Below are positions 2,541 through 9,376 of a stretch of DNA of 40,588 nucleotides, in pieces. A model generated the notes under the pieces. It saw nothing but the letters and a program-made list of their open reading frames with translations, searched no databases and had not been told where the DNA came from. The stretch spans positions 1 to 40,588 of the forward strand of contig JAQUYG010000002.1 of the NCBI GenBank assembly GCA_028691985.1, in the 5' to 3' direction. The stretch is from Minisyncoccota bacterium. Its GTDB lineage: Bacteria > Patescibacteriota > Minisyncoccia > JAHIHE01 > JAGLIN01. Both the position numbers and the translations under genes were made by a program. How positions within the stretch are numbered: position 1 is the stretch's first letter; each line of letters starts with the position of its first letter.

Positions 2541-3041
2541 ATGAAAAAAGATCAAAAAATTAGAATCGGCATATTTCTGGGCAGACTCCAGCCCCAGCAT
2601 CGCGGACATGAAAAAATGATAGAGCAGATTTTTAAAGAAAACGATAAGGTCGTATTTTGTATCGGATCGGCACAGCGAATAAGAAAATCTGACCCTGATT
2701 CCAAAAATAACCCCCTATCCAACAAGGAACGGATAAAGAGACTTAAGGAGTTCCTGGATAAGAAAAAATTCTCCAAACCCTACAAGATTTTCACCGCGAC
2801 TGACATCCAGCCCGAGTCAGCTTGGCCAGAACATCTAAAAAAAAGCTGTAATCTGACAGACAAGACCACAAACACCGTTTATTTCGGAGATCCTATTTCC
2901 AAAGAATACAGCAGCTATATGAGGAATGCTGGATTCGAACTCAAATTCATCGACAGAAAAAAATTCCTATACAGGACAAAGGCGAACACCTTGCACCGCA
3001 TATCTTCAGCCACGGAGATACGGAAGCTTGAGAACATATAA
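2541..3041 (+). CDS. nadM: NadM-type nicotinamide-nucleotide adenylyltransferase
   Basis: This nucleotidyltransferase probably joins NMN (or a related mononucleotide) to ATP to make NAD. The N terminus reads IGIFLGRLQPQHRGHEKMI, the GRxQPxHxGH form of the HxGH catalytic motif. The C terminus has ISSATEIR, matching the ISxTxIR ATP-binding signature. At 166 aa it has the length of the archaeal-type NadM family rather than the longer bacterial NadD. It is followed after 17 bases by NAD kinase in the same direction, which supports a role in NAD(P) synthesis. A TATAAT at 2504-2509 could be its -10 box. Other HxGH transferases cannot be excluded, so the substrate remains an inference. Confidence 0.8.
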   Translation: MKKDQKIRIGIFLGRLQPQHRGHEKMIEQIFKENDKVVFCIGSAQRIRKSDPDSKNNPLSNKERIKRLKEFLDKKKFSKPYKIFTATDIQPESAWPEHLKKSCNLTDKTTNTVYFGDPISKEYSSYMRNAGFELKFIDRKKFLYRTKANTLHRISSATEIRKLENI

Positions 3042-5478: not shown

Positions 5479-7014
5479 ATGATTTCAATCAATAAAAAGA
5501 ATCTTTATAGATATTTTTTCTACTTTTTCTTATTATCAATCCCCCTTCAAGGTAGAAAAGTTTTTCTGACGGAATATTCTTTCTATACCGGATCTTTTAC
5601 AGAATACGGAACTGTTTTTTTGTATATCTCAGACATATTCTTATCATTGAGTATATTATCTTTATGGCTGTTTAATAAAGATCTTATAAAAAAAGCTTTA
5701 TCTGAAATAAAAAAAGACAAGGGAATACAAAAAATATTATCCTATATAAGCATATTCTGTATTTGGCTTCTTATAAGCACTGCTATGAACAATGGTTTTT
5801 GGCAGATTTCTTTTTTTAGATCCTTGAAATATGCAGAAATGCTAGCCCTGATCTTATTAATTATTACAATCTTAAGCGAAAAGAAATATTTCATCTCATC
5901 CCTATATATCATAATAATTTCCGCATTTTTTCAAAGTATAATAGCCATATATCAGTTTATATTTCAAAAATCATTGTTTTTAGCCCCATTTCTTCATAAA
6001 ATATCTGGAGAAACAATCCTGTCTCAAGATGGATCTGGAGTAGCAAAGGTTATCTCATACAGCGGAGAAAAGCTTGTTAGAAGTTATGGTACCCTCCCCC
6101 ACCCTAATATCCTAGCCAGCTTCTTATTTTTCTCCTTTTTTATTTCATTATTCCTATATAAAGAACACAAATATCATTATTTGTCAAGTAGCATTTCCCC
6201 TAAAATAAAGCAAAAACAACACAAAAAACCTTTTAATTCACTGTTTTGGACATTGATTTTCTCTGCCCAACTTTTCGCATTAGCTTTCTCTTTTTCAAGA
6301 TCAGCCTGGATAGCCTTCTTTTTGTCATTATTAATCCTTATTACTCTTTTCTATAAAAAAATAATTGTTTCATGTGAAACAATTACAGGGATTTTAAATA
6401 AGAATAAAGAACTTTTCATATCTTTATTTTTCTTTATTATTCTAATATCCACAAACAGATACTTATTCATAAATCGTATTTTTCAAGATACAACTCATTC
6501 AAACATCAATGTCACTGAAAATTTTCTGCCCCAAAACAATACATTTAATGACAGGGTATTTTTTAATAATGTTTCACGTGAAACAATTCAGCACACCCCC
6601 ATCATAGGATCAGGGCCAGGAACTTCTATATTTCAGATAAAAGAATTTCTCACAACGCAAAACATAAATCATAACATTGAATCCTGGCAATTCCAGCCAG
6701 CTCATAATATTTTCTTATTGATATCGTCAGAGACAGGAATAATTGGGCTATTTATATTCTTATTAATAATAATAAGCACAGCACCTTATTCTTTCAAAAA
6801 TATTGTTTCACGTGAAACAATAGAGGAAGAGAAAACTCTAAAAAGAATCCTGCTCTGCATTTTAATAGGATTCATATTCTTAGGACTCTTTGATCATTAT
6901 TTTATAACTTCACAGCAAGGACAACTTATATTTTGGATAGTAATTGGACTATTGTTATTAAAAATCAAAGAAGACAATTGGGTAACGAGATTATTGAAAA
7001 GAATAAAAGAATAA
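5479..7014 (+). CDS. O-antigen ligase/polymerase-like (Wzy/WaaL) membrane protein
   Basis: This 511-aa protein has about ten to twelve hydrophobic segments and a long extracytoplasmic region around residues 330-410. The region contains RVFFNNVSRETIQHTPIIG followed by GSGPGTS and then QPAHNIFLLISSETGIIGL, the pattern of the Wzy_C/O-antigen ligase superfamily. Such enzymes join or polymerise lipid-linked glycans outside the membrane. Its partners could be the sugar-1-phosphate transferase at 20.3 kb and rmlD at 16.9 kb. Oddly, three parS sites lie within its frame, two giving the peptide VSRETI and one VSCETI. The start is the ATG at 5479; no strong Shine-Dalgarno is visible. Confidence 0.8.
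   Translation: MISINKKNLYRYFFYFFLLSIPLQGRKVFLTEYSFYTGSFTEYGTVFLYISDIFLSLSILSLWLFNKDLIKKALSEIKKDKGIQKILSYISIFCIWLLISTAMNNGFWQISFFRSLKYAEMLALILLIITILSEKKYFISSLYIIIISAFFQSIIAIYQFIFQKSLFLAPFLHKISGETILSQDGSGVAKVISYSGEKLVRSYGTLPHPNILASFLFFSFFISLFLYKEHKYHYLSSSISPKIKQKQHKKPFNSLFWTLIFSAQLFALAFSFSRSAWIAFFLSLLILITLFYKKIIVSCETITGILNKNKELFISLFFFIILISTNRYLFINRIFQDTTHSNINVTENFLPQNNTFNDRVFFNNVSRETIQHTPIIGSGPGTSIFQIKEFLTTQNINHNIESWQFQPAHNIFLLISSETGIIGLFIFLLIIISTAPYSFKNIVSRETIEEEKTLKRILLCILIGFIFLGLFDHYFITSQQGQLIFWIVIGLLLLKIKEDNWVTRLLKRIKE
6366..6381. other. parS-like ParB-binding site 1
   Basis: TGTTTCATGTGAAACA differs by one base from the 16-bp parS consensus TGTTTCACGTGAAACA known from Bacillus Spo0J/ParB. 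It is inside the Wzy-like gene and encodes V-S-C-E-T. Confidence 0.7.
6570..6585. other. parS ParB-binding site 2 (perfect)
   Basis: TGTTTCACGTGAAACA is an exact match to the palindromic parS consensus. It lies inside the Wzy-like gene and encodes V-S-R-E-T, 204 bases from site 1. Confidence 0.88.
6804..6819. other. parS ParB-binding site 3 (perfect)
   Basis: This is a second exact TGTTTCACGTGAAACA, 234 bases beyond site 2 and again in the same reading frame of the Wzy-like gene (V-S-R-E-T). Confidence 0.88.
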
Positions 7015-7040
7015 AGGGCCCAAAAATAACAATAAAAAAA

Positions 7041-7069
7041 CAAATGTTTCACATGAAACATTTGTTTTT
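7041..7069 (+). terminator. Terminator hairpin overlapping parS-like site 4
   Basis: CAAATGTTTCA pairs with TGAAACATTTG, followed by a T run. It would end the Wzy-like transcript, and its stem is built from a parS-like palindrome. Confidence 0.6.
7045..7060. other. parS-like ParB-binding site 4
   Basis: TGTTTCACATGAAACA has one mismatch to the parS consensus. It is 241 bases beyond site 3 and just outside the gene, in the loop-proximal part of the terminator-like hairpin at 7041-7069. Confidence 0.65.
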
Positions 7070-7298: not shown

Positions 7299-7440
7299 AA
7301 ATTACTTAAAGAGTATAACCTATTCTTGCAAAAAGTAAATAGATAAATGGTTAAAACACTTTTTCTGCTTTCTCTTTTTGTCTTATATAAAGGATTTTTT
7401 ACGATCCCAAAAAAAACGCTCGACAAAAATCTCACAAATG

Positions 7441-7512
7441 TGTCCCCGGCAGGAATCGAACCTGCATCTGAAGCTTAGGAGGCTTCCGTTCTATCCATTG
7501 AACTACGAGAAC
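7441..7512 (-). tRNA. tRNA-Arg (anticodon CCT)
   Basis: Acceptor GTTCTCG pairs with CGGGGAC (two G-U pairs). The anticodon stem GAAGC/GCTTC encloses loop CTCCTAA, giving anticodon CCU for AGG codons. CCA is not encoded. It lies 90 bases upstream of the cca gene, on the opposite strand. Confidence 0.95.
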
Positions 7513-7602: not shown

Positions 7603-9045
7603 ATGAAAATACCCCAAGAAATACAATCTATAACCGAAAAACTCAGAAACGCCGGATTTGAAGCCTATATCGTAGGTGGATCCGTTCGGGATTTTTTGAT
7701 GAAAAAAACTCCCAAAGACTGGGATATGACAACTGACGCTGTGCCAGAAGAAATCCAAAAGATTTTTCCACATAGCTTCTACAATAATAATTTTGGTACC
7801 GTAACCGTCATTAACGAAGAAACAGCCGAAGAAAGCCTAAAAACCGTAGAGATTACGACCTATAGGACTGAGACAGAATATACAGACAGGAGACATCCTG
7901 ATAAAGTAAAATTCACACCTAGCCTTAGTGAAGATTTAAAACGCCGCGATTTCACGATAAATGCCATGGCGCTCAGGGAAAAAGACGAAAAACAAGAAGT
8001 TGTAGATTTATTCAACGGGAAAGATGATCTTGATAAGAAAATAATCCGCGCGGCAGGAAATCCAGACGAACGTTTCTCCGAAGACGCCCTTCGCATGCTT
8101 CGCGCTATCCGATTTGCTGTGCAACTAGACTTTAAAATAGAGGAAGCTACTTTTGGTTCAATCAAAAAAAACGCTTCACTCATTGAAAATATCTCCAAGG
8201 AAAGGATACGCGATGAATTCCAAAAGATGATACTCTCGAATAACCCCGCAAGAAGTATAGAGCTTCTGCAAGAATCCGGGATTTTGAAATTCGTGATACC
8301 CGAGCTAGAAGAAGGGATAGGAATGACACAGAACAGACATCACATTTACACAATTTATGAACATCTAATAAGAACATTAAGAGAATGCCCGAGTAAGAAA
8401 CTAGAAGTCAGACTGGCGGCACTCTTCCACGATATTGCCAAACCACAGACAAAAGCAGGAGAGGGGCAAGATAGTACTTTTTATAACCATGATTTCGTAG
8501 GAGCAAAAGTAACTGGAAAGATTCTAAGACGCCTTAAATTCTCAAACAAGACGATAGAAAATACTTCTCTCTTGGTCAAAAATCACATGTTCTACTATAA
8601 CACGGGCGAAGTTTCAGAAGCGGGAGTGAGAAGACTTATAAAGAGGGTAGGAAAAGAGAATCTTAAGGACCTTATGGATCTGCGCATCGCCGACAGATTA
8701 GGAAGCGGAACTCCTAAAGCAAAGCCCTATAAACTAAGACATCTGGAATACTTGATCGAGAAAGTAAGTAAAGATCCGATTTCTCCCAAGATGTTGAAGA
8801 TAAACGGAGAAGACATCATGAATCTCCTGGATATCCAGCCTGGTCCCAAGGTTGGAGCCATACTAAAAGTACTACTGGCAGAGATTATAGAAGATACAGA
8901 CAAAAACGATCGGGAACATCTGGAAGATAGAGTACGAGAGCTTTACGAATTATCATTAGAAGACATCAAAAAAAGCGAAAAGATAATAGAAGAAAAGAAA
9001 GAAGAAGAGGATTTGAAAGATAAAAACAAGTTTTGGGTGAAATAG
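7603..9045 (+). CDS. cca: CCA-adding tRNA nucleotidyltransferase with HD domain
   Basis: It adds or repairs the 3' CCA end of tRNAs without a nucleic acid template. The N-terminal class II head domain has VGGSVRDFLMKK and DWDMTT, whose aspartates bind metal; RRDFTINAMAL and RMLRAIRFA belong to the nucleotide-recognition region. A C-terminal HD domain is present with LAALFHDIAKP near residue 270. The 480 aa fit HD-containing bacterial enzymes, and the acidic lysine-rich tail is unremarkable. All four tRNA genes in the window lack CCA, so this enzyme is expected to be essential here. Two tRNA genes lie directly upstream on the other strand. Confidence 0.95.
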   Translation: MKIPQEIQSITEKLRNAGFEAYIVGGSVRDFLMKKTPKDWDMTTDAVPEEIQKIFPHSFYNNNFGTVTVINEETAEESLKTVEITTYRTETEYTDRRHPDKVKFTPSLSEDLKRRDFTINAMALREKDEKQEVVDLFNGKDDLDKKIIRAAGNPDERFSEDALRMLRAIRFAVQLDFKIEEATFGSIKKNASLIENISKERIRDEFQKMILSNNPARSIELLQESGILKFVIPELEEGIGMTQNRHHIYTIYEHLIRTLRECPSKKLEVRLAALFHDIAKPQTKAGEGQDSTFYNHDFVGAKVTGKILRRLKFSNKTIENTSLLVKNHMFYYNTGEVSEAGVRRLIKRVGKENLKDLMDLRIADRLGSGTPKAKPYKLRHLEYLIEKVSKDPISPKMLKINGEDIMNLLDIQPGPKVGAILKVLLAEIIEDTDKNDREHLEDRVRELYELSLEDIKKSEKIIEEKKEEEDLKDKNKFWVK

Positions 9046-9058
9046 TCCTAGTCTGATA

Positions 9059-9376
9059 TTAATCTACTTTTATACCTAATATCCTTATCTCCGCGATTGC
9101 CTTTTCTAGATCATCAAAGACTATCATATGATTTAGAAAAACGCCTTTATCCAAATGTACAGAAAGGACTTCTGTACATTTAGGACATTTTCCCCACCTA
9201 AGAACATCCCAAGAAATCCTACCTCCTAAATAACGCGTTTTCCTCATTTCCCTTATCTGATCAAAACCAAACAAGATTTTCACAAACCCTCCTAAAAAGG
9301 TTAACATTATACCTTCTTCCGTTATGTAGCTCTTGTAATTAAAAACATATCCTAAGTTAAGATCCGGAAATTTCAT
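9059..9376 (-). CDS. Hypothetical protein with a single CxxC
   Basis: This 105-aa protein has an N-terminal beta-rich stretch with YVFNYKSYITEEGIML and a hydrophobic FLGGFVKILFGF, then GKCPKCTEVL near residue 64. One CxxC pair alone is unlikely to hold zinc unless the protein dimerises. It could be a small PH-like or membrane-associated protein, but I do not recognise a family. It converges on cca, 13 bases from its stop. Confidence 0.5.
   Translation of the reverse strand: MKFPDLNLGYVFNYKSYITEEGIMLTFLGGFVKILFGFDQIREMRKTRYLGGRISWDVLRWGKCPKCTEVLSVHLDKGVFLNHMIVFDDLEKAIAEIRILGIKVD

Follow-up and report, generated by a model that had tools for sequence, protein, structure and literature searches.

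The locus and its parS sites

The window, by which we mean the whole stretch of 40,588 bases that was analysed, is contig C11 of a 1.106-Mb assembly in 50 contigs. Its gene of interest, wzy, is predicted to encode a membrane ligase and contains three parS-like 16-mers, with a fourth just downstream. The features discussed here are as follows.

2541..3041, + strand: nicotinamide-nucleotide adenylyltransferase-like gene, a neighbour also kept at the locus on contig C2
3059..3838, + strand: NAD kinase gene, likewise kept at the C2 locus
5479..7014, + strand: O-antigen ligase gene (WaaL fold, PF04932 Wzy_C), 511 aa, host of parS sites 1-3
6366..6381, no strand: parS site 1, one mismatch, TGTTTCATGTGAAACA; codes VSCETI and falls after residue 296, in a loop modelled with low confidence
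6570..6585, no strand: parS site 2, exact; codes VSRETI, in a helix predicted with confidence, immediately ahead of the PxxGxGxG ligase motif
6804..6819, no strand: parS site 3, exact; codes VSRETI, in a low-confidence loop after residue 442
7036..7069, no strand: hairpin around parS site 4, 34 bases with 15 pairs, flanked by T-runs on both strands
7045..7060, no strand: parS site 4, one mismatch, TGTTTCACATGAAACA; 30 bp past the wzy stop codon
7225..7298, - strand: tRNA-Ala gene, convergent with wzy
7440..7512, - strand: tRNA-Arg gene
7603..9045, + strand: CCA tRNA nucleotidyltransferase gene (cca), repeatedly found next to parS clusters, at 16 loci of the class

The product of the host gene is predicted to belong to the WaaL/Wzy_C ligases on the basis of its Wzy_C domain (Pfam match of 56 bits), its fold and its conserved motifs. 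The AlphaFold model (pLDDT 86.7) has WaaL (7tpg) as its sole significant PDB match, and the ligase motifs are invariant among orthologues. Resemblance to known members of the family (7tpg, PF04932) extends to the fold and to the PHPN, SR and QPxHN motifs, whereas the parS-encoded peptides, which occupy loops and one helix and form long inserts in some species, set the host-gene family apart. Two more ligase/polymerase-like membrane genes, without parS, lie near dnaA-rnpA-yidC in the same genome (L037:567-3451).

The four 16-mers, starting at 6366, 6570, 6804 and 7045, are separated by 204, 234 and 241 bp. Sites 2 and 3 are exact copies of the 16-bp consensus palindrome of chromosomal parS centromeres, and sites 1 and 4 carry one mismatch each, the deviation being confined to the central CG. 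A sequence-only reading of this DNA had described the same two exact and two one-mismatch copies, at coordinates that agree with ours, and had held that there was no further copy in the 40 kb and that the repetition was beyond chance. Both judgments are borne out: the window (40,588 bases) contains no fifth copy at up to three mismatches, and dinucleotide shuffles of it yield a mean of 0.25 parS-like copies and never four. A point absent from that reading is the in-frame embedding of the cluster within one gene, sites 1-3 all falling in a single reading frame of the ORF at 5479-7014, where they are read as V-S-R-E-T (VSCET at site 1).

The central base altered in sites 1 and 4 is the position contacted by Arg173 of ParB (PMC7383237), and for this reason these two sites may be weak as ParB targets. 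The codons of site 2 are identical in other orders. Site 4 lies between wzy and the convergent tRNA-Ala gene, and its hairpin is a candidate two-way terminator.

Partition proteins and probable proximity to the origin

Both ParA and ParB are encoded in the genome. There are two ParB loci, one on contig C12 and one on the co-binned contig C10, each with ParB_N, HTH_ParB and ParB_C domains and an adjoining parA; lack of a ParB homologue was among the outcomes that the sequence-only reading had named as fatal to its proposal. The segments GKNRATVAN and TEGHARA of these ParBs hold the equivalents of Arg173 and Gly201, the residues that set recognition of parS rather than of Noc-binding sites (NBS) (PMC7383237). 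The specificity residues are of the parS type and not of the Noc type, in agreement with the earlier identification of the palindrome as the ParB target parS. Noc-binding sites were considered and rejected, since the ParBs have Arg and Gly in place of the Gln173/Arg201 equivalents and the sites themselves have the parS form; a match to the nucleoid_noc model in the genome scores under its cut-off. An SMC_N match is also present, its gene running into a stretch of N in contig C45, and an open frame of 23,226 aa at C45 was discarded as a gene because it is a run of N and not coding sequence. Of the 33 genomes examined, 4 gave no ParB_N match, and three of these carry parS (G016, G254 and G291); this is perhaps an effect of assembly or masking.

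A search of the whole assembly, excepting ~69 kb of C45 present as N, allowing up to two mismatches, found only nine further copies, all of them exact and all within 1.4 kb of the start of contig C2. This contig holds a second copy of the host gene, 52% identical and with the same neighbours. Compared with C11 and C12, contigs C2 (L005) and C10 (L039) form a collinear gene set at 52-85% protein identity, making two parAB loci. Because the genes of C11 and C12 are thus duplicated, diverged and in the same order, C2 and C10 probably come from a sibling species co-binned with the genome, despite an estimated contamination of 0.63%. The copies amount to one cluster per organism, and not to the even scatter over the genome that would have spoken against a centromere in the earlier reading.

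That reading had also placed the cluster close to oriC, a claim now supported through relatives. In the assembly itself dnaA is on a separate contig (C29), not joined to parS, and GC skew within the window tracks gene strand, the chromosome being in 50 contigs. Among class members with parS and dnaA on one contig, the two are 1.2-46 kb apart in every case (20/20). In G002, a genome of the same order, the parS-bearing wzy, parA, parB, dnaA and dnaN all lie inside 17 kb, and without dnaN the set fits into 15 kb. The single-contig genome G311 has its GC-skew sign switch at ~80 kb, its parS cluster at 84 kb and its dnaA gene at 51 kb, and the relation of parS to skew whose absence would have counted against the earlier reading is present there. 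From these relatives we infer that the cluster lies near oriC in this genome as well.

Conservation, codons and reading frames

Of the 18 genomes of the order, 14 carry a parS-like site, and in 13 of the 18 (13 of the 14 carriers) the cluster lies in, or starts in, the orthologue of the host gene. These orthologues hold 1-6 in-frame sites per gene, often with more just downstream. In the fourteenth carrier (G010) a sigma-factor-like ORF holds a single isolated site with a mismatch. In the four genomes without parS no host-gene orthologue is recoverable either, and a search of these four for the variants TGTTNCACGTGNAACA brought no rescue. Since the orthologue cannot be recovered there and contigs often break within the array (C2, G004:C117, G008:C60, G009:C136), the missing sites are likely to reflect assembly loss. 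One array, at 7659-9161 and flanks of L025 (G003), looks decayed, with only one- and two-mismatch sites in a genome where ParB is present.

Beyond the order, 80 loci were collected by a protein-alignment scan of named genomes, overwhelmingly Patescibacteria by title. Across them the density of parS-like sites is 0.84 per kb in the gene versus 0.02 per kb in the flanks (42-fold), and all sites outside the host gene are within 2.2 kb of it. Moranbacteria have up to 14 sites in the host gene, using both open frames; in one Moraniibacteriota genome a single 664-aa ORF contains 14 exact sites, in both stop-free frames and with an 87-bp two-site unit duplicated. In a tree computed with the parS codons masked, a clade joining this order and Moranbacteria, with moderate support, has 24 carriers among its 26 members, and Doudnabacteria form a separate group of carriers. 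About seven Doudna-like loci with one site each, the one-mismatch form TGTTTCA[GA]GTGGAACA, were rejected as a protein coincidence (VSGGT or VSSGT before RGYGTFPHPN) and are not to be counted among the 96.

Many other families of the class have parS between genes, or beside or inside yraN (UPF0102), the in-gene sites again being in frame. A yraN with in-frame parS occurs at L126, L132, L135, L136 and L151, making it a second recurrent host gene. The cca gene frequently neighbours clusters of both the wzy type and the yraN/intergenic type, and in two genomes of this order wzy adjoins yraN. Because these other clusters, in yraN or between genes, lie about as far from dnaA, it seems that the conserved feature is the near-origin position, with whichever gene occupies it hosting the sites; the ligase gene itself is not required for the placement of parS.

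The codons of the sites are fixed. In 13 orthologues VSRET is always written GTT-TCA-CGT-GAA-ACA, whereas CGT accounts for 7% of the remaining Arg codons of these genes; the joint chance is 0.0024 per site, and no VSRET-like peptide written in other codons was found. The exact TTTC..GAAA form uses frames f2 and f1, its third frame holding a stop (TGA), and the in-frame peptides are VSRET(I) or, in f1, MFHVK(Q/H). The CC..GG variant TGTTCCACGTGGAACA of L061 is stop-free in every frame, and all three frames are used there. Frame choice, as read from these sequences, follows stop avoidance rather than the peptide. Fixed codons, stop-avoiding frames and an array kept across the order together indicate that selection on DNA overrides protein sequence at the parS sites. 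The comparison points to an oriC-proximal centromere maintained within one coding sequence over deep divergence.

The flanks of the sites have a structure of their own. They are complementary past the 16-mer to ~9 bases, with differing arms and at coding and intergenic sites alike, and this complementarity is gone at 10-14 bases. Sites with at least seven extra pairs number 26, against 5.5 expected (maximum 13) from same-locus reshuffling. The longest example is a 46-bp perfect palindrome around parS in coding DNA (L036:5292-5337), and extended dyads with site-specific arms are seen at many loci, among them this one, L033:6888-6931, L152:4371-4561 and 7036-7069 of the window. Hairpin-templated mutation and a structural role are both possible explanations of these palindromes.

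A probable centromere within a gene: explanations and parallels

We consider it very probable that the cluster is an oriC-proximal ParABS centromere of Paceibacteria (Patescibacteria/CPR), lying in frame inside a functional-looking WaaL-type ligase gene. By homology with known ParB and ParA proteins, ParB dimers would load on the parS sites, clamp and slide, and ParA would move the ParB-parS complex. Selection on the DNA would keep the 16-mer in frames that avoid its TGA stop, and in consequence the protein would carry VSRET(I) or MFHVK(Q/H), mostly in loops. The likely cause of the embedding is that the centromere is tied to the vicinity of the origin, where a compact genome offers little intergenic space, so that sites are lost, gained and duplicated inside the gene that resides there. 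The array might affect the ligase or serve some tethering role; that the host gene is anything other than an accident of place is, in our estimation, very unlikely.

Several other explanations have to be weighed against this. Three sites of the window and nearly all those of the order share one frame and one peptide, as would be expected if VSRETI were a conserved motif of the ligase and the match to parS a by-product at the DNA level. We find this barely credible, as the codons are fixed, the rare CGT included, the same gene uses the f1 peptide MFHVK in other lineages and the third frame in L061, and identical sites are found outside the ORF. Moreover, the order members L035 and L036 have an unrelated peptide at site 2, and genuine protein coincidences look different (VSGGT beside PHPN). 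It is also highly improbable that the 16-mers, instead of forming a centromere, are copies of a palindromic repeat, mobile or interspersed, that happened to insert in the gene in the manner of the Rickettsia palindromic elements. The in-gene duplications (the 87-bp unit with two parS in L095 and 116 bp in L027), the ATTCCCGC..GCGGGAAT repeats near parS in L028 and flanks that often lengthen the palindrome, to the perfect 46 bp of L036, are what such an element might leave behind, but the copies form a single origin-proximal cluster per genome and are not interspersed, and the motif is the parS consensus in a genome that encodes a parS-type ParB.

If ParB served here chiefly to regulate the ligase, blocking or tuning wzy transcription from sites inside and downstream of the gene, the concentration of sites in a single envelope gene and the hairpin at its 3' end would be accounted for; in Pseudomonas aeruginosa, more ParB reportedly potentiates repression of the promoters beside parS3 and parS4 (PMC5521831). 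Such a role is very unlikely to be the main one, given that the sites are in the gene body, away from the promoter, and that the clusters of other families, housed in yraN or between genes, keep similar distances to dnaA, which leaves position as the common factor.

Sites for ParB within genes have precedent: in P. aeruginosa, 9 of 10 parS sites are within coding sequences (PMC4368675). The window cluster resembles these in its class of 16-bp palindrome, its proximity to oriC, its intragenic location and an Arg173/Gly201-type ParB. It differs in that 3-14 sites are gathered in one gene, in open frames and conserved across an order, that the same gene family hosts sites in other orders and that no other copy is seen in the genome. 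A further parallel is offered by the DNA uptake sequences of Neisseria and Pasteurellaceae, DNA-level signals within coding DNA (PMC2346458). Both are DNA-level motifs placed in genes and constraining them, the uptake sequences being genome-wide and the parS array single, local and centromere-like. Our literature search found no description of parS in CPR/Patescibacteria, nothing relevant on parS with O-antigen ligase or on the parS-encoded peptides, and no multi-site parS array kept in frame in one gene across an order. Intragenic parS is already known; what appears to be new is an in-frame array that a whole order keeps in a single host gene.

These results locate the chromosome centromere for a large group of uncultured bacteria and provide a clear case of a single stretch of DNA that would be both a centromere array and the coding sequence of a membrane enzyme. 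Its fixed codons, forbidden frame, in-gene duplications and 14-site genes constitute a natural experiment in centromere evolution versus protein constraint. On a practical level, parS clusters flag the origin region in fragmented CPR genomes. Palindromes of another kind are found at L028:2033-3840 (G006), where wzy has several of the ATTCCCGC..GCGGGAAT repeats in frame beside parS; they encode the peptides VIPAKAGIQ and WIPASAGMT, and similar repeats occur elsewhere in the same locus.
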